Shown: positions 4,887 to 31,604 of the stretch, one piece after another | Layout of the letters: the number at the start of each line of letters is the position of its first letter | How positions within the stretch are numbered: position 1 is the stretch's first letter | Assembly (NCBI RefSeq): GCF_005221385.1 | Contig: NZ_CP039903.1 | Location: 2,232,001-2,296,000 of the forward strand | Length of the DNA stretch: 64,000 nt | Source: Agrobacterium tumefaciens | Lineage (GTDB): Bacteria; Pseudomonadota; Alphaproteobacteria; Rhizobiales; Rhizobiaceae | Direction: 5' to 3' | Notes under the pieces: model-generated | What the model was told of the DNA's origin: nothing | Seen by the model: the letters and a program-made list of their open reading frames with translations, nothing else | Database searches by the model: none | Position numbers and translations under genes: made by a program

Positions 4887-6596
4887 TTAAAACAGGAAAT
4901 AACGCTGCGCCATCGGCAGCACGGTCGCCGGTTCGCAGGTCAAAAGTTCGCCATCCGCCCGCACCTCATAGGTTTCCGGATCGACCTCGGTATGCGGGGT
5001 GAGCGAATTGTGGATCATCGACGCCTTGGAGATGCCGCCGCGCACATTCTTCACCGGCAGCAGCGTCTTGGCGACGCCAAGGCGCTGGGCAAGGCCGGCA
5101 TCCAGCGACGCCTGCGAGACGAAAGTGACCGAGGAATTGGTGCGCAGCTTGCCATAGGCGGCAAACATCGGCCGGTAATGCATCGGCTGCGGTGTGGGGA
5201 TGGAGGCATTCGGATCGCCCATCGGGGCGGCGGCAATCGAGCCGCCGAGCAGCACCATCTCCGGCTTCACGCCGAAAAAGGCCGGGTTCCACAACACCAG
5301 ATCCGCACGTTTGCCGACTTCGATGGAGCCGATCTCGTGGCTGACACCCTGGGCAATGGCTGGGTTGATCGTATACTTGGCGATGTAACGGCGCACCCGG
5401 AAATTGTCGTTTTCGCCGGTCTCTTCCTTCAGGCGGCCACGCTGGCGTTTCATCTTGTCGGCGGTCTGCCAGGTGCGGATCGCCACTTCGCCGACGCGGC
5501 CCATGGCCTGGCTGTCGGAAGAGATGATCGAGAACGCGCCGATATCGTGGAGAATATCCTCCGCCGCGATGGTTTCCTTGCGGATGCGGCTTTCGGCAAA
5601 GGCGATATCTTCGGGAATGGACGGCGACAGGTGGTGGCACACCATCAGCATATCCAGATGTTCGGCCAGCGTATTGACGGTATAGGGCCGCGTCGGGTTG
5701 GTGGAAGACGGAATGACGTTCGGATTGCCGCAGACCTTGATGATATCGGGCGCGTGCCCGCCGCCCGCCCCTTCAGTGTGGAAGGCATGAATGGTGCGGC
5801 CCCTTATCGCGGCGACCGTATCTTCCACGAAACCGCTTTCATTCAGCGTGTCGGTGTGGATCATCACCTGCACGTCATATTCATCGGCAACCGTCAGGCA
5901 ATTGTCGATGGCGGCGGGCGTCGTGCCCCAGTCTTCGTGCAGCTTCAGCGAGGAGGCGCCGGCGAGGATCATCTCTTCCAGCGGTGCGGGCAGCGAGGCA
6001 TTGCCCTTGCCGGCCAGCGCCAGATTCATTGGGAAGGCATCGAAGCTTTCGATCATCCGCTCGATATGCCATGCACCGGTGCAGGTGGTGGCAAGCGTGC
6101 CATGCGCCGGGCCGGAGCCGCCGCCCAGCATGCAGGTCACGCCGCTCATCAGCGCTTCCTCGATCTGCTGCGGGCAGATGTAATGGATATGCGCATCCAT
6201 GCCGCCGGCCGTCAGGATCTTGCCTTCACCGGCAATCGCCTCCGTCGAAGGACCGACGATGATCGTCACGCCCGGCTGCGTATCCGGGTTGCCCGCCTTG
6301 CCGATGGCGTGGATGCGGCCATTCTTCAGGCCCACATCCGCCTTGTAGATACCGCTATGGTCAACGATCACCACATTGGTGATAACGGTATCGACAGCGC
6401 CTTGCGCCCGCGTCGCCTGGCTCTGGCCCATGCCGTCGCGAATGACCTTGCCGCCGCCGAATTTCACTTCCTCGCCATAGGTCGTGTGGTCCTTTTCGAT
6501 CTCGATGAAGAGTTCGGTATCGGCAAGACGCACCTTGTCGCCAACGGTCGGGCCGAACATGCCGGCATAGGCAGCGCGGGAAATCTTGTAAGGCAT
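4887..6596 (-). CDS. ureC: Urease catalytic subunit alpha (UreC)
   Basis: UreC (569 aa) holds the dinickel centre that hydrolyses urea to ammonia and carbamate. All active-site motifs are present: DAHIH (H136, H138), the lysine to be carbamylated in SLKLHEDWG (K218), H247 in VMIHTDT, H273 in [12 protein letters not shown], the mobile-flap pair MVCHH (C320-H321) and the metal-ligand Asp in [12 protein letters not shown]. Length matches the bacterial alpha subunit. Unlike the compact ureABC of many bacteria, three extra genes separate it from ureB here. Confidence 0.98.
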
Positions 6597-11306: not shown

Positions 11307-12002
11307 TTATACTGTCAGATGACGCCGCGCTTCCGGCGTATCCAGCGTTTCAGCCAGCCCCTCATGCACGATCTCACCGCGATCCATGATGTAAACGTAA
11401 TCGGCAAGCTCACGGCAGAAATCCAGATATTGCTCGACCAGCAGGATGGCCATGCCGGTGGAATCCCTGAGATATTTGATCGCCCGGCCGATATCCTTGA
11501 TGATCGACGGCTGGATACCTTCGGTCGGCTCGTCGAGAACGAGGATTTTCGGCCGCGTCACCAGCGCCCGGCCGATGGCGAGCTGCTGCTGCTGACCACC
11601 GGAGAGATCCCCGCCGCGCCTTCCCAGCATGGATTGCAGCACCGGAAACAGGCTGAAAATATCATCCGGGATGAACCGCTCCTTACGCGGCAGCGGCGCA
11701 TAGCCGCTTTCGAGATTCTCCTGAACGCTGAGCAGCGGAAAGATTTCCCGTCCCTGCGGCACGTAACCGACACCACGCTTGGCCCGATGGTAAGGCGCCA
11801 GCCCATCCAGCGCCGCCCCTTCAAAGCTGATCGTCCCGGCACTGGTGGCGTGCTGGCCGGTAACGGCGCGCAGAAGCGAGCTTTTGCCCACCCCGTTGCG
11901 GCCGAGGACACAGGTGATCTTGCCCATCTCCGCCGTCAGCGAAACGCCGCGCAGGGCCTGCGCTGCGCCGTAATGGAGGTTGATGTTGTCGACGTTCAGC
12001 AT
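11307..12002 (-). CDS. urtE: Urea ABC transporter ATPase UrtE
   Basis: UrtE (231 aa) is the LivF-like ATPase of the urea transporter. It has Walker A GRNGVGKS, signature LSGGQQQQ, Walker B ILVLDEPTEGIQPSII and the H-loop equivalent LLVEQYL, where Gln replaces His as is normal in this subfamily. The start MLNVDNINLHYGAAQALRG matches UrtE; a GTG three codons upstream is possible but an AGG lies well placed for 12002. It pairs with UrtD to power UrtB/UrtC. Confidence 0.95.
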   Translation of the reverse strand: MLNVDNINLHYGAAQALRGVSLTAEMGKITCVLGRNGVGKSSLLRAVTGQHATSAGTISFEGAALDGLAPYHRAKRGVGYVPQGREIFPLLSVQENLESGYAPLPRKERFIPDDIFSLFPVLQSMLGRRGGDLSGGQQQQLAIGRALVTRPKILVLDEPTEGIQPSIIKDIGRAIKYLRDSTGMAILLVEQYLDFCRELADYVYIMDRGEIVHEGLAETLDTPEARRHLTV

Positions 12003-12016
12003 TTCATCCACCTGTT

Positions 12017-12611: not shown

Positions 12612-13373
12612 CTATCGCCCCAGATAATTCTCGATCACCTTCGGATCGCTGGACACGAAATCGATCGACCCTTCGGCCAGCACCGAGCCTTCGGCAAGGC
12701 ACGTCACCTTCACCCCCAGCTCGCGGATGAAGCCCATGTCATGCTCCACCACGACAACAGAGCGGGTCTTGGCGATTTCCTTCAAAAGCACGGCGGTTTC
12801 CGCCGTTTCCGCATCCGTCATGCCCGCCACCGGCTCATCCACCAAAAGCAGCTTCGGCTCCTGCGCCAAGAGCATGCCGATTTCCAGCCATTGTTTCTGG
12901 CCGTGCGAGAGGTTGGCGGCAAGATCGCCGCGGCGGTGGCCAAGGCGCACGGTGGCGAGGATTTCCTCGATGCGGGCCTTGTCTTCCTCCGTCAGCCGGT
13001 AGAAGAGCGTCGCGAAAACACCGCGCTTGCGGTTGAGCGCCAGTTCCAGATTGTCCCAGACGGTATGGCTTTCGAACACCGTAGGCTTCTGGAATTTTCG
13101 CCCGATGCCGAGCTGGGCGATGTCAGCCTCATCCTTCTTGGTCAGGTCGATACTGTCTTCAAACAGCACCGTGCCCGTATCCGGCCTTGTCTTGCCGGTG
13201 ATGATGTCCATCATCGTCGTCTTGCCCGCGCCATTCGGGCCGATGATGGCGCGAAGCTCGCCCGGCTCCACCACGAAGGAGAGCGAGTTCAGCGCCCTGA
13301 AACCGTCGAAGGATACCGAGACGCCATCGAGATAAAGCAGGCTCTTCGTTCTCTTTTCGGAAATCGTGTTCAT
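12612..13373 (-). CDS. urtD: Urea ABC transporter ATPase UrtD
   Basis: UrtD (253 aa) is the LivG-like ATPase. It has Walker A GPNGAGKTT, Q-loop GRKFQKPTVFE, signature LSHGQKQWLEIGM (the variant typical of UrtD), Walker B KLLLVDEPVAGM and the His switch VVVEHDMGF. It starts 7 bp after the urtC stop. The downstream gap before the TerB-like gene is 76 bp. Confidence 0.96.
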   Translation of the reverse strand: MNTISEKRTKSLLYLDGVSVSFDGFRALNSLSFVVEPGELRAIIGPNGAGKTTMMDIITGKTRPDTGTVLFEDSIDLTKKDEADIAQLGIGRKFQKPTVFESHTVWDNLELALNRKRGVFATLFYRLTEEDKARIEEILATVRLGHRRGDLAANLSHGQKQWLEIGMLLAQEPKLLLVDEPVAGMTDAETAETAVLLKEIAKTRSVVVVEHDMGFIRELGVKVTCLAEGSVLAEGSIDFVSSDPKVIENYLGR

Positions 13374-13380
13374 ATCCGCC

Positions 13381-14556
13381 TCACTCCGCCGCCTGTTGCG
13401 CCACTGTTACGGCACCGTCATTGCCCGGCTCTGCGCTGCTTGCCGCCCGCGCAACCCGCTTTTCACGCCGCCCGGCCAGATAATGCTGCACGGTGCCGAC
13501 GATGCCCTTCGGGAAGAACAGCGTCACCGCGATGAACAGGCCACCCAGCGCAAACAGCCAGAATTCCGGGAAAGCGCCGGTGAAATAGCTTTTCCCGCCA
13601 TTGACGAGCAGCGCACCGATGATCGGCCCGATCAGCGTGCCGCGCCCGCCCACCGCCGTCCACACCACCACTTCGATGGAGTTGGCGGGCGAAAATTCGC
13701 CGGGATTGATGATGCCCACCTGCGGCACGAACAGCGCGCCGGCAATGCCCGCCATCATGGCCGAAACGACGAAGGTGAAGAGCTTGATGTTTTCCACCCG
13801 GAAACCGAGGAAACGCACCCGGCTTTCGGCATCGCGCACGCCCACCAGCACCTTGCCGAATTTGGAATTGACGATGCCCGATGCGATCAGCAGGGAGAGC
13901 GCCAGCATCACCGCCGTCATGGCAAACAGCACGGCGCGGGTGCCATCCGCTTGCACGGAAAAGCCGAGGATGTCCTTGAAATCGGTGAGGCCATTATTGC
14001 CGCCGAAACCCATGTCGTTGCGGAAGAAGGCGAGCAGCAGCGCATATGTCATGGCCTGGGTGATGATGGAGAGATAAACACCGTTGACGCGCGAGCGGAA
14101 GGCGAACCAGCCGAACACGAAGGCGAGCAGGCCCGGCACCACCAGCACCATCAGCGCCGCAAACCAGAACATGTCGAAGCCTTGCCAGAACCACGGCAGT
14201 TCCTTCCAGTTGAGGAAGACCATGAAATCAGGCAGCACCGGATGGCCATAAACCCCGCGCGTGCCGATCTGCCGCATCAGATACATGCCCATGGCGTAAC
14301 CGCCGAGCGCGAAAAAGGCGGCATGGCCGAGCGAGAGGATGCCGCAATAACCCCAGACGAGATCAAGCGCGAGCGCCAGGAGCGCATAGGCCAGATATTT
14401 GCCCAGCATCGACATGATATAGGTCGGGATGCGGAACGCGCTGTCTTGAGGCAACAGCAGGTTGGAGGCCGGCACCAGCACGGCGATGGCGAGAATGATG
14501 CCGATGGCGATGGAAATGCGGCGATCGAGCGCGCGCAGGAGGAAGCCGGTAATCAT
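13381..14556 (-). CDS. urtC: Urea ABC transporter permease UrtC
   Basis: UrtC (391 aa) is the LivM-like permease with about ten membrane segments. It has the conserved ALDLVWGYCGILSLGHAAFF segment and the cytoplasmic coupling region GVRDAESRVRFLGF that meets the ATPase. The ATG overlaps the urtB stop (ATGA at 14553-14556), indicating translational coupling. The C-terminal 30 residues are polar and variable. Confidence 0.96.
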   Translation of the reverse strand: MITGFLLRALDRRISIAIGIILAIAVLVPASNLLLPQDSAFRIPTYIMSMLGKYLAYALLALALDLVWGYCGILSLGHAAFFALGGYAMGMYLMRQIGTRGVYGHPVLPDFMVFLNWKELPWFWQGFDMFWFAALMVLVVPGLLAFVFGWFAFRSRVNGVYLSIITQAMTYALLLAFFRNDMGFGGNNGLTDFKDILGFSVQADGTRAVLFAMTAVMLALSLLIASGIVNSKFGKVLVGVRDAESRVRFLGFRVENIKLFTFVVSAMMAGIAGALFVPQVGIINPGEFSPANSIEVVVWTAVGGRGTLIGPIIGALLVNGGKSYFTGAFPEFWLFALGGLFIAVTLFFPKGIVGTVQHYLAGRREKRVARAASSAEPGNDGAVTVAQQAAE

Positions 14557-16166
14557 GCTTCGATCGCCCTTCCCTTGAGTGCGAAGAGACCGCGCGGCCG
14601 CTTCTGGATGAACAGGATGATGAGAACGAGCACGAGGATCTTGCCGAGAACGGCGCCCACCGTCGGCTCGAGGAACTTGTTGAGCACGCCGAGAGACAGG
14701 GCGCCCACCAGCGTTCCCCAGAGATTGCCGACGCCGCCGAACACCACCACCATGAAACTGTCGATGATGTAGCTCTGGCCGAGATTGGGCGAGACATTGT
14801 CGATCTGCGACAGCGCTACGCCGGCGAGACCGGCAACGCCCGAACCGAGCGCGAAGGTGAAGGCATCCACCCACGGCGTGCGAATGCCCATGGAAGAGGC
14901 CATGCGACGGTTCTGCGTCACGGCGCGCATCTGCAACCCGAAAGCGGAGCGCTTCAGGAGCACCAGCAGCGCGAAGAACACCGAGAGCGAAAAACAGACG
15001 ATCCACACCCGGTTCCAGGTGAAATTGAGATAACCGACGCTGAAGGAGCCGGACATCCAGCCGGGGCTGCCGACTTCCCGGTTGGTCGGGCCGAAGATGG
15101 AGCGCACGCCCTGCTGCAGGATGAGCGAGATGCCCCAGGTGGCGAGCAGCGTTTCGAGCGGCCGCCCGTAAAGAAAGCGGATGACACCGCGCTCCATGAC
15201 AAGGCCGACAAAGGCCGTCACCAGAAAGGCGACGGGCAAAGCGATGGCAAGCGACCAGTCGAACAGGCCGGGGAAGCTGGAGCGGATCACCTCCTGCACC
15301 ATGAAGGTGGAGTAAGCGCCGATCATCACCATTTCGCCATGGGCCATGTTGATGATGCCCATGACGCCGAAGGTGATGGCAAGACCGATGGCGGCGAGCA
15401 GCAGCACGGAACCGAGTGAAAGGCCATACCAGACATTCTGCACGTAATCCCAGAAGGCAAGCGCGCTTTCGATGCTGGAAATGGCCTCGTCTATATCGGG
15501 TTTCAGGCTTTGATCCACGGAGGCCGACGCCGCCATGAGAATGCCGATGGCATCGCGCCCGCCGAGCTTCTTGATGGTCGCGATTGCTTGCCTTTTCTCT
15601 TCGAGCGACCGTTCGGAGGAGAGCAGCGAGACAGCCCGCGCCTCCTCCATCCGGGTCCGCACCTCAGTATCGGTCTCCTTGGCGATGGCCGCTTCCAGCA
15701 ATTCGAGATTTTCGGCGCTCGGCGCTTTCAGAACCGCATCGGCCGCAGAAAGCCGCACGGATTTTTCCGCGCTGAGCAGGGTCAGGCCGCCAAGTGCGGC
15801 GCGGATGACGCGACGCAGATTATTGTTGACCTTGATCTTGCTGACAGCCGCCTTCGGCGCTTCACCCGCACTTTCGCCCGTCAGCGGATCGATCAGCGTA
15901 AAATTGGAACCTGCCGGTTTCGTCATGAAAACCAGATTGTCGGCCTTGCGCACGTAAAGATCGCCCGCCGCAAAAGCCTCGAGCGCCGGCACGACACGCG
16001 CATCGCCCGTGGCAGCGATCTGCCCGATCAGCACTTCGGCCTGCTTGAAATCCGCCGTGCCGAGCTGGTCGATCAGCGCCTTCGGCTCGCTTTGCGCGAA
16101 GGATTGGGCGGCGATCCCCAGGGTGAGCCAGAGGAAGATGGCTCCGAGAAAAGATCGGATCGTCAT
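14553..16166 (-). CDS. urtB: Urea ABC transporter permease UrtB
   Basis: UrtB (537 aa) is the LivH-like permease. As in other UrtB proteins, the membrane part (about residues 245-537, with FGVMGIINMAHGEMVMIGAY and coupling motif MRAVTQNRRMASSMG) is preceded by a signal peptide and an exported alpha-helical HEAT-like region (about 25-230). That extension is absent from amino-acid LivH. The ATG at 16166 gives a proper signal peptide (MTIRSFLGAIFLWLTLGIAA). The 285-bp gap to urtA contains a palindromic mosaic repeat. Confidence 0.96.
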   Translation of the reverse strand: MTIRSFLGAIFLWLTLGIAAQSFAQSEPKALIDQLGTADFKQAEVLIGQIAATGDARVVPALEAFAAGDLYVRKADNLVFMTKPAGSNFTLIDPLTGESAGEAPKAAVSKIKVNNNLRRVIRAALGGLTLLSAEKSVRLSAADAVLKAPSAENLELLEAAIAKETDTEVRTRMEEARAVSLLSSERSLEEKRQAIATIKKLGGRDAIGILMAASASVDQSLKPDIDEAISSIESALAFWDYVQNVWYGLSLGSVLLLAAIGLAITFGVMGIINMAHGEMVMIGAYSTFMVQEVIRSSFPGLFDWSLAIALPVAFLVTAFVGLVMERGVIRFLYGRPLETLLATWGISLILQQGVRSIFGPTNREVGSPGWMSGSFSVGYLNFTWNRVWIVCFSLSVFFALLVLLKRSAFGLQMRAVTQNRRMASSMGIRTPWVDAFTFALGSGVAGLAGVALSQIDNVSPNLGQSYIIDSFMVVVFGGVGNLWGTLVGALSLGVLNKFLEPTVGAVLGKILVLVLIILFIQKRPRGLFALKGRAIEA

Positions 16167-16229
16167 GTCGGGTTCCTTGGGCGTTTTACGACGGGGCGTT
16201 TTTGGGTAATGCCACTTGAGTATGCGGTT

Positions 16230-16384
16230 TACCCCCCTCTGCCCTGCCGGGCATCTCCCCCACAAGGAGGGAGATCGGCAAGGTGCGCTCGCATCGCTCT
16301 ATCTCGACCGAAGAGAAATGCGGGGCCTAGCCACGAGTCGATCTCCCCACCTGTGGGGGAGATGCCCGGCAGGGCAGAGGGGGG
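16230..16384. repeat. Second palindromic mosaic repeat, copy A (urtA-urtB gap)
   Basis: Outer arms CCCCCCTCTGCCCTGCCGGG and CCCGGCAGGGCAGAGGGGGG are long inverted repeats. Inner arms GGGAGATCG/CGATCTCCCC flank a core of about 60 bp. The same arms occur at 33682-33838 and 43817-43974. Located between urtA and urtB in the operon, the RNA hairpin could separate high expression of the binding protein from low expression of the membrane parts. Confidence 0.85.
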
Positions 16385-16451: not shown

Positions 16452-17741
16452 TCAGCTACCCTTGCCGCCGCACTTCCCACTGGCCACATTGAAGTTGCCG
16501 CACGACATCGGCTTCCGCCAGTCCGAGATCAGATCCTTCGAATCCGGCAGGTAATCCGACCATTCGTCACCCACAACCTGCGGGGTCTGCTGCACGATTT
16601 CGAACTGGCCGTCGGCCTGGATTTCGCCGATCAGCACCGGCTTGGTGATGTGGTGGTTCGGCATGACGGTGGAGTAACCGCCCGAAAGGTTCGGCACGGA
16701 AACGCCGATAATCGAGTCGAGAACCTTGTCCGTATCCGTCGTGCCGGCGGATTCGACGGCCTTTACCCAGGCGTTGAAGCCGATATAGGCGGCTTCCATC
16801 GGGTCGTTGGTCACGCGCTTGTCGTTCTTGGTGAAGGCATGCCAGGTCTTGATGAATTCGGCATTAACAGGCGCATCGACGGACTGGAAGTAGTTCCAGG
16901 CGGCAAGGTGGCCGACCAGCGGTGCGGTGTCGAGACCGGCAAGTTCTTCTTCGCCGACCGAGAAGGCAACGACGGGAATGTCTTCAGCCTTGATGCCCTG
17001 GTTCGCCAGTTCCTTGTAGAAAGGCACGTTGGCGTCGCCGTTGATGGTGGAAACCACGGCGGTCTTCTTGCCGGCCGAGCCGAATTTCTTGATGTCGGAC
17101 ACGATCGTCTGCCAGTCGGAATGACCGAACGGCGTGTAGTTGATCATGATGTCCTCTTCCTTGACGCCCTTCGACATCAGGTAGGCCTTCAGGATCTTGT
17201 TGGTGGTCTGCGGATAGACATAGTCCGTGCCGGCCAGAACCCAGCGCTCCACACCTTCGGTGCTGGCGAGATAATCGACGGCCGGAATGGCCTGCTGGTT
17301 CGGCGCCGCACCGGTATAGAAGATGTTACGCGAGGATTCTTCACCCTCATACTGAACCGGGTAGAACAGGATCGAATTCAGTTCCTCGAAGACCGGCAGA
17401 ACCGACTTGCGCGAGGAGGACGTCCAGCAGCCGAAAACGGCCGCGACCTTGTCCTGCGAAATCAGCTGGCGGGCCTTTTCGGCAAATAGCGGCCAGTCGG
17501 AAGCCGGATCGACCACCACGGCTTCGAGTTTCTTGCCGAGCACCCCGCCCTTCTTGTTCTGCTCGTCGATGAGCATCAGCATGGCGTCCTTCAGCGTCGT
17601 CTCTGAAATCGCCATGGTGCCGGACAGCGAATGCAGCACACCGACCTTGATGGTGTCGTCAGCGGCAAAAGCGCCATGGAAGGCGGTGGTGGACAGGATC
17701 GCGCCAAGCAGCGCAGCACTAAGCGTCTTGCGGAATATCAT
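16452..17741 (-). CDS. urtA: Urea ABC transporter substrate-binding protein UrtA
   Basis: UrtA (429 aa) is the periplasmic urea-binding component. It has a signal peptide (SAALLGAILSTTAFHGAFA), KVGVLHSLSGTMAISE at the mature N-terminus, and family motifs FGCWTSSSRKSVLPVFE, LFYPVQYEGEESS and GTDYVYPQTTN that distinguish UrtA from amino-acid LivK proteins. The ATG at 17741 has AGGGG 8 bases upstream. It is the first gene of urtABCDE. Confidence 0.97.
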   Translation of the reverse strand: MIFRKTLSAALLGAILSTTAFHGAFAADDTIKVGVLHSLSGTMAISETTLKDAMLMLIDEQNKKGGVLGKKLEAVVVDPASDWPLFAEKARQLISQDKVAAVFGCWTSSSRKSVLPVFEELNSILFYPVQYEGEESSRNIFYTGAAPNQQAIPAVDYLASTEGVERWVLAGTDYVYPQTTNKILKAYLMSKGVKEEDIMINYTPFGHSDWQTIVSDIKKFGSAGKKTAVVSTINGDANVPFYKELANQGIKAEDIPVVAFSVGEEELAGLDTAPLVGHLAAWNYFQSVDAPVNAEFIKTWHAFTKNDKRVTNDPMEAAYIGFNAWVKAVESAGTTDTDKVLDSIIGVSVPNLSGGYSTVMPNHHITKPVLIGEIQADGQFEIVQQTPQVVGDEWSDYLPDSKDLISDWRKPMSCGNFNVASGKCGGKGS

Positions 17742-17840
17742 CGGAAGAACCCCTCTCCTTGTTTGGCCTCTTATCAAGGCTCAGCGGCATCTGCGGCCGC
17801 TGCTGGGAGGGACTATCGATCTCGCGAACGCGAAACCGTA

Positions 17841-17856
17841 TACGTCAATTGACGTA
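17841..17856. promoter_or_regulatory. Perfect 16-bp palindrome upstream of urtA
   Basis: TACGTCAATTGACGTA is a perfect 8+8 palindrome centred 107 bp before the urtA start. Read on the urtA strand it contains TTGACG, a possible -35 element, though no convincing -10 follows. An operator for a dimeric regulator is a reasonable guess. No regulator can be named from the sequence. Confidence 0.5.
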
Positions 17857-18658: not shown

Positions 18659-18674
18659 TGGCACGCGGCATGCA
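18659..18674 (+). promoter_or_regulatory. Sigma-54 (-24/-12) promoter of glnII
   Basis: TGGCAC-GCGGC-ATGCA matches the RpoN consensus TGGCAC-N5-TTGCA with one mismatch and exact spacing. It gives a leader of about 80 nt before the glnII ATG. Rhizobial glnII genes are known targets of NtrC and sigma-54 under nitrogen limitation. Confidence 0.75.
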
Positions 18675-18768
18675 TCTATGGGGTCAGCCCTTGAACGCGA
18701 AAGCGCTTCCGGCGGCGAAAGCCACGGAAGCCTCAAGGCTTCGCATCTTTACCTATGAGAGGTTCGTA

Positions 18769-19803
18769 ATGACTAAGTTCAAACTCGAGTACATCTGGCT
18801 GGATGGATACAAGCCGGTCGCCAACCTGCGCGGCAAGACACAGGTCAAGGAATTCGACGAATTCCCGACACTCGAGCAGCTGCCACTTTGGGGTTTCGAT
18901 GGTTCGTCCACCCAGCAGGCTGAAGGCCATTCGTCGGATTGCGTGTTGAAGCCCGTTGCGATCTACCCCGACCCGGCCCGTACCAACGGTGCGCTCGTCA
19001 TGTGCGAAGTCATGATGCCCGATGGCGTTACCCCGCACGCCTCCAACAGCCGCGCCACCATCCTCGAGGACGAGGATGCATGGTTCGGTTTCGAACAGGA
19101 ATATTTCTTCTACCAGGACGGCCGCCCGCTCGGCTTCCCGGAACAGGGTTACCCGGCTCCGCAGGGTCCTTATTACACCGGCGTCGGCTTCAAGAATGTC
19201 GGTTCGGTTGCCCGTGAAATCGTTGAAGAGCACCTCGACCTCTGCCTCGAAGCCGGCATTAACCACGAAGGCATCAACGCTGAAGTGGCCAAGGGCCAGT
19301 GGGAATTCCAGGTCTTCGGCAAGGGCTCCAAGCGCGCCGCCGACCAGATCTGGATCGCCCGCTACCTGCTGCTGCGCCTTTGCGAACAGTACGGCATCGA
19401 CGTTGAATTCCATTGCAAGCCGCTCGGCGATACCGACTGGAACGGCTCTGGCATGCATTGCAACTTCTCCACCAAGTTCATGCGCGAAGTTGGCGGCAAG
19501 GACTATTTCGAAGCCCTCATGGCCGCTTTTGCCAAGAACTGGCAGGAACACATCGACGTTTACGGCCCGGACAACCATCTGCGCCTGACCGGCAAGCACG
19601 AAACCGCTCCGTGGAACAAGTTCTCCTATGGCGTGGCAGACCGTGGCGCCTCGATCCGCGTTCCGCATTCCTTCGTCAACAACGGTTACCGTGGTTACCT
19701 CGAAGACCGTCGTCCGAACTCGCAGGGCTGCCCATACCAGATCGCTTCCGTCGTTCTGCAGACGATCGCGGAAGTGCCGCTCGCAAAGTCGGCTGCTGCC
19801 TGA
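18769..19803 (+). CDS. glnII: Glutamine synthetase type II (GlnII)
   Basis: GlnII (344 aa) is the eukaryotic-type, octameric/decameric glutamine synthetase used by rhizobia in addition to GlnA. It makes glutamine from glutamate, ammonia and ATP, and would capture ammonia released by urease. It begins MTKFKLEYIWLDGY and has FDGSSTQQAEGHSSD, the metal-binding FGFEQEYFFY, GSGMHCNFSTKFM and the C-terminal RRPNSQGCPYQIASVV. It lacks the adenylylation Tyr region of type I enzymes. AGAGG lies 6 bases before the ATG. Confidence 0.97.
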   Translation: MTKFKLEYIWLDGYKPVANLRGKTQVKEFDEFPTLEQLPLWGFDGSSTQQAEGHSSDCVLKPVAIYPDPARTNGALVMCEVMMPDGVTPHASNSRATILEDEDAWFGFEQEYFFYQDGRPLGFPEQGYPAPQGPYYTGVGFKNVGSVAREIVEEHLDLCLEAGINHEGINAEVAKGQWEFQVFGKGSKRAADQIWIARYLLLRLCEQYGIDVEFHCKPLGDTDWNGSGMHCNFSTKFMREVGGKDYFEALMAAFAKNWQEHIDVYGPDNHLRLTGKHETAPWNKFSYGVADRGASIRVPHSFVNNGYRGYLEDRRPNSQGCPYQIASVVLQTIAEVPLAKSAAA

Positions 19804-19814
19804 TAAGCCAAGAC

Positions 19815-19849
19815 ATGGCGTCGCCCTGAGCCGGGCGACGCCATTTTTG
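19815..19849 (+). terminator. Rho-independent terminator of glnII
   Basis: A 12-bp perfect stem ATGGCGTCGCCC/GGGCGACGCCAT (19815-19826, 19833-19844) with a 6-nt loop is followed by TTTTTG, starting 12 bp after the glnII stop. Confidence 0.9.
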
Positions 19850-20824: not shown

Positions 20825-23800
20825 ATGGCCGCACGGCAACGCATCATCCCCGTCAGGCGCGAATATAACCGCTGGGTCGCCAACCAGACGCTGGAAGATT
20901 ATGCGCTGCGCTTCACCGCCAAAAGCGCCCGGCAATTTTCCTCAAACCGCATCTCCCACACCGCCATCGGCGCAATTTCCTTTCTGGCGCTGGAAGCCAT
21001 CGGCGGGGCGATCACCCTCTCCTACGGCACCACCAACGCCTTTTACGCCATCCTCGTCGCCGCCATCGCCATGCTGGCCGTCGGCCTGCCGATCAGCCGT
21101 TACGCCATCCGCCACGGTGTCGATATCGATCTTCTGACGCGCGGCGCAAGCTTCGGTTATATCGGCTCCACCATCACCTCGCTGATCTATGCCGCCTTCA
21201 CCTTCATGCTCTTCGCCATCGAAGCGTCGATCATGTCCGGCGCGCTGGAACTGGCGCTCGGCATTCCGCTGTGGATCGGCTACATCATCTCGGCTGTCAT
21301 GGTCATTCCGCTCGTCACCCATGGCGTGCGCCTCATCAGCCGCTTCCAGATCATCACCCAGCCCTTCTGGATCGTGCTGAACGTCCTGCCCTTCATCTTC
21401 ATCGCCTTGATGGACTGGGAAAAATACGATCTCTGGCGGGCCTTTTCCGGCATTCACCACGCTTCCGGTCCACCGGGCACGGTGGCGGATTTCAACCTCG
21501 TGGAATTCGGCGCGGCCTCGGCCGTCATCCTCGCATTGATGTCGCAGATAGGCGAGCAGGTGGACTTCCTGCGCTTCCTGCCTGCCGAGGGCCAGAGCCG
21601 CCTTCGCCACCGCCTTGCCGTCTTCCTGGCCGGCGCCGGCTGGGTCGTCGTCGGCGTGCCGAAGCTGCTCGCCGGCTCCTTCCTCGTGGTGCTCACCTTC
21701 AGTTCCGGCGTCTCGGTGGATCGCGCCGCCGATCCGGCCCAGATGTACCTCACCGCCTTCGGTTACATGATCCCCAACGAAACCGCCGCCATGCTGCTGA
21801 TGGTTGCCTTCGTCGTCGTCTCGCAGCTGAAGATCAATGTCATGAATGCCTATGCGGGTTCGCTCGCCTGGTCGAACTTTTTCTCGCGCCTCACCCACAG
21901 CCATCCCGGCCGCGTCGTCTGGCTGGTCTTCAACGTGGCGATCGCGCTGCTTCTGATGGAACTCGGCATTTACCGGCTGCTGGAAGAAACGCTCGGCATC
22001 TTCTCCATTATTGCCATGGCGTGGCTCTGCACCATTTCCGCCGATCTCTTCATCAACAAACCGCTCGGCCTTGCCCCGCCGGGCATCGAATTCAAGCGCG
22101 CCCATCTTTACGATATCAACCCCGTCGGTGTCGGCTCCATGGCGCTTTCGGCCACCATCGCCCTGATGGCGCATTTCGGCGCTTTCGGCCCGCTCGCCGC
22201 CTCGCTCGCGCCCTATCTGACGCTGATCGTCGCCTTCATCGCCTCACCGCTGATTGCCTGGGGCACGAAAGGCAAATTTTATCTCGCCCGCAAGCCGCGC
22301 CAGAAATGGCGCGAAGAAAGCACCATCACCTGCTCCATCTGCGAGCACCCTTTCGAGCCGGAAGACATGGCATGGTGTCCCGCCTATGCCGCACCGATCT
22401 GTTCGCTCTGCTGCTCACTGGACAGCCGCTGCCATGACATGTGCAAGCCGAAGGCGAAGCTGAACTATCAGGTGGCGACCGTCGCGAAATCCTTCCTGCC
22501 GGATCAGCTGGTGGCGAAGCTCGCTACCCGGCTCGGACGCTATGGCATGGCGGCGGCGATTGCCGTCACCGCCATCGGCGGCATATTGGCGATGATCGCC
22601 CATCAGGTCGGCACCGCCTCGCCGGAAACGGCCGATGTGGTGAACCGCACCATCCTCATCGTATTTTTTGTCTTCGCCGTCATTGCCGGCATCGTCTGCT
22701 GGTTCCTCGTGCTTGCCCATGACAGCCGGGTGGTGGCGGAAGAGGAATCCTCGCGCCAGAACACATTGCTGCTCAAGGAAATCGCCGCCCACAAGAAGAC
22801 CGACGCCGCCCTTCAGGACGCCAAGGAAACGGCCGAGGCCGCCAATCGCGCCAAGAGCCGTTATGTGGTGGGCCTCAGCCATGAATTGCGCACGCCGCTC
22901 AACGCCGTCTTGGGTTATGCCCAGATCCTCGAACGCGACGACACCATCCCCCAACCCCGGCAATCGGCGATCAAGGTCATCCGCCGCTCGGCCGATCACC
23001 TGTCGGGCCTGATCGACGGGCTTCTCGATATTTCCAAGATCGAGGCGGGCCGCTTGCAGGTCTATTCCAACGAGATCAATATTCAGGATTTCCTCGACCA
23101 GATCGTCGATATGTTCCGCCCGCAGGCGCAGGCCAAGGGGCTGGAGTTCCGCCATGACCGCTCCCGCGCCCTGCCGCAATATGTCCGCACCGATGAAAAG
23201 CGGCTGCGCCAGATCCTCGTCAACCTCATCTCCAACGCCATCAAATTCACCGATGAGGGCACCGTCACCTTCGATGTCGGTTATCGCAGCCAGGTGGCGA
23301 GTTTCACCGTCTCCGATACCGGCCGCGGTATTGCACAAAAGGACCTCGCCCGCATCTACGAGCCCTTCCAGCGCGGCGAGGCAGACAGCGTGCGCCCCAT
23401 GCCCGGCCTCGGCCTTGGCCTGACCATTACGAGGCTTCTCACCAATACGCTGGGCGGCGAAATCTCCGTTTCCAGCGAAAAGGACAATGGCTCCACTTTC
23501 CGCGTGCGCCTCATGCTGTCTGCCGTGCACCGGCCAAGCACGGCGCCGGCGGCGGAAAAGACCATCCGCTCCTATTCCGGCCCGCGCCGCACCATCGTCG
23601 TGGTCGATGACAATGAGGACCACCGCGAGCTGATGCGGCAAGTACTCTCCCCGCTCGATTTCGTGGTGCTGACCGCCCAGAGCGGGCCGGAATGCCTGAC
23701 GCTGATCGAGGGCGTGAAGCCCGACCTCTTCCTCATCGATATTTCTATGCCCGGCATGACCGGCTGGCAGCTTGTGACGAAACTGCGGGAAGCCGGGCAG

Positions 23801-24220
23801 ACCGCCCCGCTCATCATGCTCTCGGCCAATATCGGCGACGGAACCGTGGCGGGTGCGGGAGAAGACAATCACAACGACGCCATCGCCAAACCGGTCGATA
23901 TCCGCCACCTGTGCGACAGGCTCGCCGTGCATCTCGGCCTCAAATGGATCTACGAGGCGGATATGCCGCCATCGCCATCGCCGCCGCCCGTGGCGCAGAT
24001 CGTCCATCCCGGCGCAATTCACATTCAGGATTTGCAGCGTCTCGGTGAAATAGGCTACATACGCGGCATAGAGGCGAAACTCGCCGATCTTGCCCGCAAC
24101 ACGGATAACCTGCCCTTCACGCAGGAACTCGGCACCTATGTGCAGGCCTTCGATCTGGCCGGTTACGCGCATTTTCTCAAACGGTTTGCGGATAACGACA
24201 CGGGGGACGGCACGACATGA
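20825..24220 (+). CDS. NCS1 permease-hybrid histidine kinase fusion
   Basis: This 1131-residue protein joins a transporter to a sensor kinase. Residues ~1-480 form a ~12-segment membrane domain resembling NCS1 (cytosine/purine/allantoin) permeases, e.g. LLTRGASFGYIGS followed by FTFMLFAIEASIMSG. A Cys-rich module (503-540: TCSICEH, AWCPAY, CSLCC, RCHDMC) follows, then two more membrane segments (about 570-630). The kinase has the H-box GLSHELRTPLN (H686), N-box N804, G-box DTGRGIA and GLGLGL. The receiver has phospho-acceptor D972 in FLIDISMPG, and a ~90-residue helical tail ends the protein. Its last 4 bp overlap the response regulator. The layout is analogous to SLC5-type CbrA; the sensed or transported compound is unknown. 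Confidence 0.85.
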   Translation: MAARQRIIPVRREYNRWVANQTLEDYALRFTAKSARQFSSNRISHTAIGAISFLALEAIGGAITLSYGTTNAFYAILVAAIAMLAVGLPISRYAIRHGVDIDLLTRGASFGYIGSTITSLIYAAFTFMLFAIEASIMSGALELALGIPLWIGYIISAVMVIPLVTHGVRLISRFQIITQPFWIVLNVLPFIFIALMDWEKYDLWRAFSGIHHASGPPGTVADFNLVEFGAASAVILALMSQIGEQVDFLRFLPAEGQSRLRHRLAVFLAGAGWVVVGVPKLLAGSFLVVLTFSSGVSVDRAADPAQMYLTAFGYMIPNETAAMLLMVAFVVVSQLKINVMNAYAGSLAWSNFFSRLTHSHPGRVVWLVFNVAIALLLMELGIYRLLEETLGIFSIIAMAWLCTISADLFINKPLGLAPPGIEFKRAHLYDINPVGVGSMALSATIALMAHFGAFGPLAASLAPYLTLIVAFIASPLIAWGTKGKFYLARKPRQKWREESTITCSICEHPFEPEDMAWCPAYAAPICSLCCSLDSRCHDMCKPKAKLNYQVATVAKSFLPDQLVAKLATRLGRYGMAAAIAVTAIGGILAMIAHQVGTASPETADVVNRTILIVFFVFAVIAGIVCWFLVLAHDSRVVAEEESSRQNTLLLKEIAAHKKTDAALQDAKETAEAANRAKSRYVVGLSHELRTPLNAVLGYAQILERDDTIPQPRQSAIKVIRRSADHLSGLIDGLLDISKIEAGRLQVYSNEINIQDFLDQIVDMFRPQAQAKGLEFRHDRSRALPQYVRTDEKRLRQILVNLISNAIKFTDEGTVTFDVGYRSQVASFTVSDTGRGIAQKDLARIYEPFQRGEADSVRPMPGLGLGLTITRLLTNTLGGEISVSSEKDNGSTFRVRLMLSAVHRPSTAPAAEKTIRSYSGPRRTIVVVDDNEDHRELMRQVLSPLDFVVLTAQSGPECLTLIEGVKPDLFLIDISMPGMTGWQLVTKLREAGQTAPLIMLSANIGDGTVAGAGEDNHNDAIAKPVDIRHLCDRLAVHLGLKWIYEADMPPSPSPPPVAQIVHPGAIHIQDLQRLGEIGYIRGIEAKLADLARNTDNLPFTQELGTYVQAFDLAGYAHFLKRFADNDTGDGTT

Positions 24221-25146
24221 GCGGTCAGGCGGCGGCAGCCCCGAGAGACATTGTATTGCTGGTGGATGACAGCCCGGAAGCGCTCGGGTTTCTCACCGAT
24301 GCGCTGGAACAGTCCGGCTTTTCCGCCCTCATCGCCACCTCCGGCCAGGCAGCCCTCAACATTGCCGAACGCATTACGCCCGATATCATCCTGCTCGACG
24401 CCGTCATGCCTGTTATGGACGGTTTCGAGACCTGCCGCCGCCTGAAGGCCAATGCGGCGGTGGCGCAGGTGCCCGTCATCTTCATGACCGGGCTGACCGA
24501 GACCGAACATGTGGTGCGGGCGCTCGAATCCGGCGGCGTCGATTATCTGACCAAGCCGATCAACATCGACGAGCTGCGCGCCCGCATCCGCGTGCATCTT
24601 TCCAATGCCCGCTCGGCCCAAAGCGCCCGCGTCGCGCTCGACGCCGCCGGCCGCCACCTGCTCGCCGTGCGCGCTAATGGCGTCATCCACTGGTCGACGC
24701 CGCAGGCGACGCGGCTCGTCAACGCCGCCACCGGCCGCGATGACGGGCTGGAGATCGTCGTTGCCCATATTTCCGGCTGGCTTTCGGACAGGGTGACGGT
24801 GGATGCCGCCCGCGACACGCCCCTGACGATCACCGAGGCCGGCAGGCCAGCCCTGCAACTCTCCTTCCTCGGCGCGATGGGACCGGACGAATATCTCTTC
24901 CGCCTGACCGCCGCCAACGAGAAATCCGACGACCACCTGCTGAAAAACCATTTCGCCCTGACAACACGGGAATCGGAAGTGCTGCTGTGGATCGCCAAGG
25001 GCAAATCCAACCGCGATATCGGCGATATTCTCGGCCTTTCCGCGAGAACCGTGAACAAGCATCTGGAACAGATCTATGTGAAGCTCGGCGTGGAAAACCG
25101 GGCATCGGCGGCTGTGAAGGCGGCGCATATATTGCATCAGGGGTGA
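24217..25146 (+). CDS. Receiver-LuxR response regulator
   Basis: The 309-residue protein has an N-terminal receiver (LLVDDSPEALGF, D61 in ILLDAVMPVMDG, T in FMTG, K in YLTKPIN). A middle region of ~110 residues follows, possibly PAS-like (NGVIHWSTPQATRLVNAATG). The C-terminal LuxR/FixJ HTH (LTTRESEVLLWIAKGKSNRD to VENRASAAVKA) binds DNA. ATGA overlap with the kinase gene shows they are a cognate pair. Its targets are not evident; the nearby urea and glnII genes are candidates by proximity only. Confidence 0.93.
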   Translation: MSGQAAAAPRDIVLLVDDSPEALGFLTDALEQSGFSALIATSGQAALNIAERITPDIILLDAVMPVMDGFETCRRLKANAAVAQVPVIFMTGLTETEHVVRALESGGVDYLTKPINIDELRARIRVHLSNARSAQSARVALDAAGRHLLAVRANGVIHWSTPQATRLVNAATGRDDGLEIVVAHISGWLSDRVTVDAARDTPLTITEAGRPALQLSFLGAMGPDEYLFRLTAANEKSDDHLLKNHFALTTRESEVLLWIAKGKSNRDIGDILGLSARTVNKHLEQIYVKLGVENRASAAVKAAHILHQG

Positions 25147-28588: not shown

Positions 28589-29317
28589 TCAGTGCCGTCC
28601 GCCTTCCAGATAAGCGGCGCGAACCTGTGGGTCGGCCAGCAGTTCCTTGCCCGAACCGCTCATCGTCACCTTGCCGTTGACCATCACATAAGCGCGGTCG
28701 GAAAGCTTCAGCGCGGCAAAGGCGTTCTGCTCCACCAGGAAGACGGTCAGCCCTTCCTCCTGGTTGAGTTTCTTGATCGCCTCGAAGATGCCCTTGACGA
28801 TCAGCGGCGCGAGACCGAGCGACGGTTCGTCGAGCAGAAGCAGCTTCGGCCTTGCCATCAACGCGCGGCCGATGGACAGCATCTGCTGCTCGCCGCCGGA
28901 AAGCGTGCCGCCCCGCTGGCTCTGGCGTTCCTTCAGGCGCGGGAACATCACGAAGATCTTCTCGACGTCTTCCTTGAAATATTTGAGGTTGTCGAGATTG
29001 GCGCCCATCTGCAGGTTTTCCAGCACCGTCATGCGCGGGAAAATCCTGCGGCCTTCGGGCGACTGGGCAATGCGCTTGCGGGCGATGAGATGCGTCGGCA
29101 GCTGGGTAATGTCTTCGCCGTCGAAGATCACCTGGCCGGCACGCGCCTGCGGGCTGCCGCAGATGGTCATCATCAGCGTCGACTTGCCGGCGCCATTGGC
29201 GCCGATCAGGCTGACGATTTCACCCTTGTTGACTTCGACATCGACACCGGCCAGAGCGCGGATATTGCCATAATAGGTTTCGACACCCTGGACTTTCAGA
29301 AGCGGTTCACCGGACAT
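28589..29317 (-). CDS. livF: Branched-chain amino acid ABC ATPase LivF
   Basis: LivF (242 aa) is one of the two ATPases of the LIV transporter. It has Walker A GANGAGKST, signature LSGGEQQML, Walker B LLLLDEPSLGLAPLIV and VFLVEQNAFAAL. It shares one base with the livG stop (29317), typical of coupled translation. A 170-bp gap with no clear feature separates it from the DUF6867 gene. Confidence 0.96.
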   Translation of the reverse strand: MSGEPLLKVQGVETYYGNIRALAGVDVEVNKGEIVSLIGANGAGKSTLMMTICGSPQARAGQVIFDGEDITQLPTHLIARKRIAQSPEGRRIFPRMTVLENLQMGANLDNLKYFKEDVEKIFVMFPRLKERQSQRGGTLSGGEQQMLSIGRALMARPKLLLLDEPSLGLAPLIVKGIFEAIKKLNQEEGLTVFLVEQNAFAALKLSDRAYVMVNGKVTMSGSGKELLADPQVRAAYLEGGRH

Positions 29318-30207
29318 CAGGCCGCTCCTCCGTCGAGTTCTTCCGCAATCACGTCTTCCACTTCATCATCCTCGACACCCAGATAGGCGGCGATGACCTT
29401 CGGGTCGTTCTTCACATGGTCCGGCGTGCCGTCGGAAATCTTCTGGCCATATTCCAGAACCACCACATGGTCGGAAATCTGCATCACAACGGACATGTCA
29501 TGCTCGATGAGGAGCAGCGACGTGCCTTCATCGCGGATGCCGCGCAAGAGCGCATTGAGCGCCAGCGATTCCTTCGGGTTGAGACCGGCGGCCGGCTCAT
29601 CGAGGCACAGAAGCTCCGGCCCCGTGCACATGGCGCGGGCGATTTCCAGACGGCGCTGCGCGCCATAGGGCAGATCACCGGCCGGGTCGTCGGCGCGGTC
29701 GATCAGATCGGCCTTTTCCAGCCAGTATTTGGCTTTCTCGATCGAGCTTGCAACCGCCCTCTTATAGGCAGGCAGGCCGAGGAGACCGAGAATGGTGTAA
29801 CCCGAGGCCTTCATCAGCGCATTGTGCTGCGCCACCAGCAGGTTTTCCAGAACCGTGAGGCCCGAAAACAGGCGGATGTTCTGGAAGGTGCGCGCCACCT
29901 TCGCCTTCTTGGTGATTTCGAAATCCGGCAGGCGCTCGAGAAGATGCGCCTCGCCACTTTGCTGGCGCATGGTGATCATGCCCATCGTCGGCTTGTAGAA
30001 GCCGGTGATGCAGTTGAAAACCGTGGTCTTTCCAGCACCGTTGGGGCCGATCAGCGCGGTGATCTCACCGCGCTTCGCCTCGAAGGAGAAGTCGTTGATG
30101 GCCATCAGGCCGCCGAACTTCATCGAGAGATGTTCGACCTTGAGGATCGTGTCGCCCGTCGTATTGCCGTTCGCATTGGATGTCATGTTCATCGTTCCGG
30201 AAGCCAT
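29317..30207 (-). CDS. livG: Branched-chain amino acid ABC ATPase LivG
   Basis: LivG (296 aa) is the second ATPase. It has Walker A GPNGAGKTT, KVARTFQNIRLF (Q-loop), Walker B LLCLDEPAAGLNPKES and LLIEHDMSVVM. The signature region PYGAQRRLEIARA is the LivG variant. There is a ~20-residue polar N-terminal extension before ILKVEHLSMKFGG and an acidic C-terminal tail. The ATG at 30207 overlaps the livM stop by one base (TGATG). Confidence 0.96.
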   Translation of the reverse strand: MASGTMNMTSNANGNTTGDTILKVEHLSMKFGGLMAINDFSFEAKRGEITALIGPNGAGKTTVFNCITGFYKPTMGMITMRQQSGEAHLLERLPDFEITKKAKVARTFQNIRLFSGLTVLENLLVAQHNALMKASGYTILGLLGLPAYKRAVASSIEKAKYWLEKADLIDRADDPAGDLPYGAQRRLEIARAMCTGPELLCLDEPAAGLNPKESLALNALLRGIRDEGTSLLLIEHDMSVVMQISDHVVVLEYGQKISDGTPDHVKNDPKVIAAYLGVEDDEVEDVIAEELDGGAA

Positions 30208-31604
30208 CAACCGTGACCTTCCTTGGTAAAGCTGCCGGACACGGCCTTGCGCTCCTTGAGGAAGGCCGTGGGTTCACGCGAGCCGACGAAGCCGCGCGGC
30301 TTGAACAGCATGACGATGACCATGGCGAGGCCGAACAGCAGCATACGATAGAGTTCCGGTGTGAAATCAGGCCCGAAGATGTGCTTCAGGAATTCCATTT
30401 CACGCAGAAGCTCCGTGCCGCCGACCATGACGAGGGCGGCAATGGCAATACCTGTCAGCGACCCCATGCCGCCAAGCACGACGATGGCGAGGATGACGGC
30501 GGATTCGAGGAACACGAAGCTTTCCGGCGACACGAAACCCTGACGCGCCGCGAAGAACGAACCGGCAAAACCGCCGAACATCGCGCCCGTCGCAAAGGCG
30601 GTGAGCTTGGTGATGACGGTATCGATGCCGAGTGAACGGCAAGCGATTTCGTCCTCACGCAGCGCTTCCCAGGCGCGGCCAATCGGCATGCGGCGCAGCT
30701 TGATCGTGACGTAGGCCGTCAGCATGCACAGAAGCAGGATCACATAGAACAGGAAGATCTTGTAATAGGCCGATGACATCGACAGGCCAAACGCCTTGGC
30801 GAAGTTGTTCGGCGCGCCGACATCGAAAGACCAGATGCCGAAGACGGAAGCCTTGGCGATACCGGAAATACCGAAGGTGCCCTTGGTCACATCTGTCCAG
30901 TTCAGCAACACGAGACGGATGATTTCACCAAAGGCGAGCGTGACGATCGCCAGATAGTCGCCGCGAAGTCTCAGAACCGGGAAACCGAGGATGATGCCCC
31001 AGAAGCCCGCGAGAATGCCGGCAAGCGGCAGAAGCACCCAGAAGGACAGGCCGAACTGGCTGGACAGCAGCGCATAGGAATAAGCGCCAACCGCATAAAA
31101 GGCCACGTAGCCGAGATCGAGCAGGCCGGCCAGCCCGACGACGATGTTGAGACCCCAGGCCAGCATCACGTAGATGAGGATCTGGATGCCGAAATTGTCG
31201 ACGAATTTCAGCGAACCCTGAAAACCGAACAATTGCACGGCGATAACAGGGTAAAGCAGCAGCAGAACCAGCGCCAGCTTGAGGAAGTGCTTATGGAAAA
31301 AGCCCTTGTCCTCGGAGATTTCCAGAATGCCGGTTTTTGCCTTGGCAAGCCTGCGGCGATCCATCGACGGTTTGAAGAAGCCGACCACGAGGAAACGGCC
31401 AATGGCGGCGACGGCGACGAAGATCGCCAGCAGCCCCCAGCGGGTGCCCCAGATCAGCTGGTTGTTGATATCCTGATAGGTGATGATGCCGATGTAGAGA
31501 ATGAACATGCCGAACGAGACGACGCCGGCAATCAGCCCCTCCTTCACCGCCGTTGCCATCAGGCTCGGGCTGGAAGCGGCATTTTCGGAAGCGATATTGG
31601 TCAT
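30207..31604 (-). CDS. livM: Branched-chain amino acid ABC permease LivM
   Basis: LivM (465 aa) is an integral membrane permease. The N-terminal ~130 residues, with two extra membrane segments and a basic linker, are longer than the E. coli type. The core has [41 protein letters not shown] and the coupling segment [15 protein letters not shown]. The stop is shared with livG; livH ends 4 bp before it. The C-terminal tail ([16 protein letters not shown]) is polar. Confidence 0.96.

Follow-up and report, generated by a model that had tools for sequence, protein, structure and literature searches.

Cytoplasmic regulators that respond to urea or amides, such as UreR and AmiC/AmiR, are known, but we are not aware of a membrane-bound receptor kinase for either urea or formamide; in our literature search, conducted mostly outside subscription journals, neither a fusion of NCS1 to a kinase nor a two-component system that senses urea was found to have been described before. 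The closest described systems join other transporter folds to a kinase. In the SLC5-STAC sensor kinases CbrA and CrbS/MxtR, a transporter fold is followed by a linker domain and a histidine kinase: in the available portions of the respective articles, the STAC linker is described as a four-helix bundle (PMC13022988), CbrA as taking up histidine (PMC7918813), and CrbS as a hybrid kinase with a LuxR regulator that acts at an imperfect palindrome (PMC5715377). Ks-Amt5, an ammonium transporter domain fused to a kinase, has lost transport, according to the available text on it (PMC5764959).

Here, we describe a sensor of Agrobacterium tumefaciens, encoded in a window of 64,000 nucleotides (the whole stretch of DNA that was analysed, to which all coordinates for this genome refer). 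The sensor shares with CbrA and CrbS/MxtR the combination of transporter fold, linker and histidine kinase, a likeness to CbrA-type fusions that the preliminary description of the locus had rightly drawn, and with CrbS also the hybrid kinase, the LuxR partner and a palindrome (PMC5715377), but its membrane domain and its relay appear to be different. Like Ks-Amt5, it would reuse a nitrogen transporter as the receptor of a kinase; Ks-Amt5 differs in having the Amt fold, and the available text on it mentions no 8-Cys domain, receiver or LuxR partner (PMC5764959). The fold of its N-terminal domain is that of CodB and Mhp1, with R216 and Y285 of CodB kept, whereas the stacking aromatics and the Na2 threonines are replaced and a kinase is fused. 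The DUR3 urea transporters (SLC5 type) belong to another family, and their likeness to the sensor does not exceed that of other LeuT-fold proteins. From the architecture, conservation, gene linkage and operator placement, as read from the sequences, we consider it likely that the sensor is an NCS1-derived receptor kinase for urea or short amides, whose LuxR regulator controls the urt genes from the operator TACGTCAATTGACGTA.

The sensor gene (20825..24220, plus strand) encodes 1131 aa, in which five regions follow one another on the same strand: an NCS1-like 12-helix domain with the CodB/Mhp1 fold (residues 23-485, 20891..22279); a domain with eight invariant cysteines (residues 503-540, 22331..22444; C503, 506, 518, 526, 529, 530, 536 and 540); two extra membrane helices (residues 575-628, 22547..22708), placed by mean hydropathy over 22 alignment rows and appearing in the structure model as helices 569-598 and 600-659; a kinase core, composed of HisKA (residues 677-742, 22853..23050, H686) and HATPase_c (residues 789-898, 23189..23518, N804 and D831); and a receiver (residues 924-1033, 23594..23923, D972 and K1022). 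The last two regions, recognized by Pfam and by their conserved sites, contain the H, N, D and D residues of a hybrid histidine kinase, and the succession of NCS1-like membrane segments, kinase and receiver in one frame, as first observed, is confirmed. The tail after the receiver (residues 1062-1118) is kept in close relatives, with no Pfam match and no apparent HPt-like histidine motif. The next gene (24217..25146, plus strand) encodes the LuxR regulator that had been named as the partner: by Pfam, it consists of a receiver (residues 13-125, D61) and a GerE/LuxR HTH (residues 248-302), as is expected of a NarL/LuxR-type response regulator; the ~120 residues between the two (126-245) match no Pfam family.

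The comparison with the structures of CodB and Mhp1, proposed at the outset, has identified the N-terminal domain as the 12-helix LeuT-type fold of these NCS1 transporters. The argument for NCS1 rests on this comparison and on an intermediate, the stand-alone permease L161, because the direct sequence routes to solved relatives have failed: the Pfam model PF02133 does not match the sensor at E up to 10, the sensor-family profile has 0 matches in the PDB, where L161 and L050 have chance matches only, and hhalign aligns the profile with E. coli CodB at a probability of 11% over 152 columns. L161 does match PF02133, and hhalign reaches 99.9% with L161 as the intermediate and 97% with L163. Within the window genome, no PF02133 permease was found, and the membrane part of the sensor is matched at the sensor locus alone.

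The residues of the sensor have been mapped to CodB through these intermediates, at ~20% identity. In the available text on CodB, W108 stacks on the base and forms an aromatic sandwich with F204 (PMC9379551); in the ~20% identity alignment, these stacking aromatics are replaced by L/F129 and L238, respectively, Q105 by T126 and A207 by Q241, while the Na2 threonines T278/T279 are replaced by the invariant K336 and the near-invariant I337. The R216-Y285 pair persists, as R250 and Y343, in 136/136 rows that cover it. Of the CodB residues compared, retention of the substrate contacts having been put forward as a check, R216/Y285 are kept, and W108, F204 and Q105 are changed, as are the sodium ligands T278/T279. 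E133, Q241, E244, Q245, K336, N338, N341 and Y343 are invariant in the pocket, and the loss of the aromatic walls together with the gain of fixed polar groups suggests, at this ~20% identity, that small polar amides would fit the pocket more readily than flat bases. On the same alignment, the lysine at the sodium site argues against sodium symport, an activity that the membrane domain has probably lost. Since the domain has no match to PF02133 and lacks both the base-stacking aromatics and the sodium ligands, we describe the protein as an NCS1-derived sensor rather than as an NCS1 transporter. JGI names label parts of its relatives “purine-cytosine permease-like”, which is consistent with the fold and misleading for the ligand.

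Between the membrane domain and the extra helices, the eight cysteines are present in 136/136 alignment rows that cover them, and perhaps hold two zinc sites. Their domain is modelled as short strands; the linker region is without a match in a Pfam scan, and structure comparison of the 8-Cys model returned no standout family. FYVE/ZZ/RING-like zinc fingers, in which a cross-brace fold binds two metals, were weighed as a possible class for it. Across 249 genomes, the domain is confined to the sensor (36 matches, plus one chance match).

The sensor is present in a large number of soil bacteria: full-length copies occur in 20/289 genomes of the class, where a 21st listed genome (G138) was left out as containing a distant permease only, and in 52/398 genomes of the phylum, from 18 family codes, where two further listed genomes were left out as containing a fragment or distant permeases. 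Rhizobium, Sinorhizobium, Bradyrhizobium, Methylobacterium and Roseibium are among the carriers in the best 80 of at least 591 confirmed stretches. For the comparison of gene neighbourhoods, 136 related loci were collected: 19 of the 20 class loci, these best 80 of at least 591 stretches, and 37 of the 40 phylum loci, drawn from part of the phylum places; one species may appear twice, and L050 and L161-L163, with distant stand-alone permeases only, were left out. The regulator gene lies directly downstream of the sensor gene in 133/136 of these loci, the exceptions being L128, on a 3.8-kb contig, and L164 and L165, where the same membrane and 8-Cys module is carried on a different kinase core (27-28% identity). 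In both L164 (8502-11156 of its own stretch, minus strand; no receiver by Pfam) and L165, fmdA is found ~5 kb downstream of the sensor gene.

With the window included, 128/137 loci have urt, fmdA, ureC or urea-carboxylase/allophanate genes near the sensor in the stretch examined per locus; five of the other nine are on short or broken contigs, and in L040, L041, L043 and L047, which are uncut by contig ends, the 20 kb examined contain neither urea nor amide genes. Two main types of locus are seen: the first has canonical urtABCDE, often with ureC, and includes the window; the second has a more distant urt-like transporter, with a UrtA ~36-42% identical to that of the window, together with FmdA (formamidase) and in most cases a small gene, presumably that of FmdB, and no ureC was found in the stretch examined. 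A few loci have urea carboxylase and allophanate hydrolase. The laboratory strain Rhizobium johnstonii (leguminosarum) 3841 (L092) shares the arrangement of the window. FmdA scores above its cut-off in 39/398 genomes, 38 of which have the sensor (the exception is G387), while 14 genomes have the sensor without FmdA and 345 have neither; the Fisher p of this association, 3e-40, is uncorrected for kinship. One Ectopseudomonas genome has been described with an urtABCDE operon and LuxR two-component genes close, by locus tag, to fmdA, in an article the available part of which does not analyse the sensor itself (PMC13296017). The gene context of the stand-alone relatives is mixed: at L161:9249-13673, the nearest one met, an NCS1-type permease, is followed by a double carbon-nitrogen hydrolase and by a binding protein that resembles UrtA/AmiC (Peripla_BP_5), a hint that amides are relevant to this relative too, and L243 (G489), unlike L161, has no amide genes among its four scanned neighbours.

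In the window, the urea genes occupy the minus strand: urtA, the urea ABC binding protein gene (16452..17777; TIGR03407, 563 bits against a cut-off of 492.75), with its likely ATG at 17741; an ORF expected to contain urtB (14553..16265; tblastn match, 70% identity to UrtB of L049); an ORF containing urtC (13381..15006; TIGR03408 above cut-off, ORF residues 192-504); urtD (12612..13373; TIGR03411 above cut-off); urtE (11307..12011; TIGR03410 above cut-off); and ureC, for the urease alpha subunit (4887..6596; PF00449 and PF01979). The glutamine synthetase gene at 18670-19803 is GlnII-like, with a score below the NCBIfam cut-off, and is probably outside the sensor transcript, since a strong, terminator-like stem (19815-19844) follows it, ahead of the SDR, sensor and regulator genes; glnII is also close to the sensor in L051, L072 and L088. 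No close match (>36% identity) to the SDR gene was found in the other related loci, and no RNA element reached its gathering score at 8000-30000 of the window. The branched-chain amino acid type ABC transporter genes at 28589-31604 (ATPase and DUF3382 permease) are not part of the sensor system.

Our search for a common operator drew on 77 loci with a divergent region between urtA and the sensor gene; after thinning by identity, 46 regions remained, with the window excluded, and exact dyads were counted. The dyad TACGT-N6-ACGTA occurs in 23/46 regions, and no dyad exceeded 5 occurrences in any of 20 shuffled sets; the consensus of the symmetric matrix is CGCATACGTCAATTGACGTATACG. Its best match in the window, scoring 31.3 with the next best at 8.5, is the palindrome TACGTCAATTGACGTA at 17841..17856 in the urt promoter, ~107 bp upstream of the likely ATG of urtA, and the 5.5-Mb genome contains no other perfect copy. 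Because a perfect copy of the family operator stands in the urtA promoter, the tie of the sensor to urt in the window is direct, and the functional link with the neighbouring urea genes that the preliminary description had supposed is supported, as it is by the gene context of the 128 loci, the window among them, with urea or amide genes. A wider regulon is not indicated in the window genome: there is no second perfect site, the 6 places with 2-3 mismatches equal the yield of a reversed control pattern, and a looser pattern, matched with one mismatch in every case, gives 23 places (the operator included), compared with 11 from its control.

In loci with non-adjacent urtA and sensor genes, the operator mostly accompanies urtA rather than the sensor gene. 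Among the 39 urea-type loci with urtA outside the discovery set, the window included, 31 have their best match, at a score of at least 24, 57-79 bp before the first aligned codon of urtA, with the sensor gene ~1-13 kb away; many of these 31 are Rhizobiaceae, and they are thus not independent. A strong operator lies ~1300 bp before urtA, ahead of a porin gene, in L042, L044 and L046, and a match of 24.6 lies ahead of the sensor in L182; best matches are weaker in L038 (16.8), L178 (13.9), L185 (16.1) and L049 (19.0). In L040, L041 and L043, the sole zero-mismatch ATACGYNNNNNNRCGTAT match of each genome is located 165-190 bp upstream of the sensor gene, and the system may thus regulate itself. 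A score of 20 is reached in 40/57 loci outside the discovery set and, within 600 bp before urtA, in 50/77 discovery-type loci; the best scores of letter-shuffled loci average 7.8, with a maximum of 23.5 in a single locus, so that 20 is not a clean threshold. No site at this score was found in 17/57 non-discovery loci: L038, L047, L049, L069, L178, L185 and L196, the kinase-swapped L164 and L165, and all eight loci that have ureC but no full urtA (L167, L169, L171, L183, L184, L187, L189 and L191). Among urtA promoters sampled as controls, 0/20 from sensor-less genomes (highest 5.8) and 0/20 unlinked ones from sensor genomes, all FmdA-positive (highest 11.4), score at least 20, compared with 15/20 linked ones (misses 3.2, 7.0, 13.0, 13.7 and 17.5), several of which come from genomes that also contributed to the matrix.

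Two pocket positions follow the type of locus: position 129 is F in 58/58 formamidase-type loci and L in 58/70 urea-type loci, and position 340 is T in 58/58 and M in 53/70, respectively. We have rejected these positions as a ligand switch: 12 urea-type loci have F129, and loci of one type tend to group together on the tree (at least 6 changes are needed, 2 of them forced by well-supported branches), so that kinship alone may explain the pattern.

The preliminary description had read the protein as a transceptor that senses or imports a purine, pyrimidine or allantoin-like compound, hydantoin being a further candidate, the breakdown products of which the urea genes would process. The NCS1 fold, the retained R250 and Y343 and the proximity of urease and urt agree with this, but the loss of both stacking aromatics and of Q105 (now T126) does not, and neither does the lack of a PF02133 permease in the genome; the recurrent neighbours handle urea and small amides (urea/amide uptake, formamidase, urease, urea carboxylase and allophanate hydrolase), and formamidase is not known as a step in the usual breakdown of purines or allantoin. 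We give this ligand class very little credence, and the initial interpretation as a whole is partly supported. A membrane domain that both signals and transports urea or amides, perhaps driven by protons, would account for the complete 12-helix fold and for the retention of both R216 and Y285 of CodB, and CbrA, a comparable fusion, takes up histidine, as far as the available text goes (PMC7918813); the replacement of the Na2 threonines by an invariant lysine and a near-invariant isoleucine, the dedicated urea ABC transporter that adjoins the sensor, and the loss of transport reported in the available text for the fused ammonium sensor Ks-Amt5 (PMC5764959) make continued transport unlikely.

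It is also conceivable that the membrane domain is a mere anchor and that the 8-Cys domain is the real sensor, of zinc, nickel or redox state, tuning the urea genes to metal supply. The eight cysteines are fully conserved, and urease requires nickel; against this, the membrane domain has polar residues in its pocket that vary no more than the cysteines, the same cysteines occur in formamidase-type loci, where no ureC was found in the stretch examined, and across 249 genomes the domain is confined to the sensor, apart from one chance match. We see a slight chance that this is so. For the receptor of urea or short amides that we favour, gene context is a surer guide to what is controlled than to what is sensed, and the sensor could respond instead to nitrogen status or to some other nitrogen compound; in formamidase-type genomes, the signal is more likely an amide than urea, because the unlinked urtA there lacks the operator.

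In the mechanism that we propose for this receptor, a small amide, urea in the window genome and formamide-like amides in many relatives, would bind where the hash and bundle helices once enclosed the transported substrate, and the resulting movement would be relayed to the kinase by the 8-Cys domain, in the cytoplasm, and by helices 13-14. Judging by the conserved sites, the kinase would autophosphorylate at H686 and then phosphorylate its own receiver at D972, and phosphate would be passed to D61 of the partner regulator, directly or via an unseen phosphotransfer protein. The LuxR-type regulator would then bind TACGTCAATTGACGTA, placed before urtA by sequence, and switch on urtABCDE, and the imported urea would be split by urease. 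In this scheme, we infer what the ligand is, in which direction control acts, by which route phosphate is transferred and that transport has been lost. More tentatively, and with rather more doubt than confidence, we suggest a class of Proteobacterial receptor kinases in which a non-transporting, NCS1-derived receptor for urea or small amides has a lysine where the sodium ion used to bind and relays its signal through a new cysteine domain, and in which urea and formamide operons have been switched alongside small changes of the pocket (129, 340).

The sensor is thus a widespread candidate for a membrane receptor kinase for urea or formamide, for which a partner, a DNA site and target genes can be named. 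It would add a further transporter family, NCS1, to those that have been turned into receptor kinases, with a relay domain that appears to differ from STAC, and may help to ask how the movements of transport are turned into signals.
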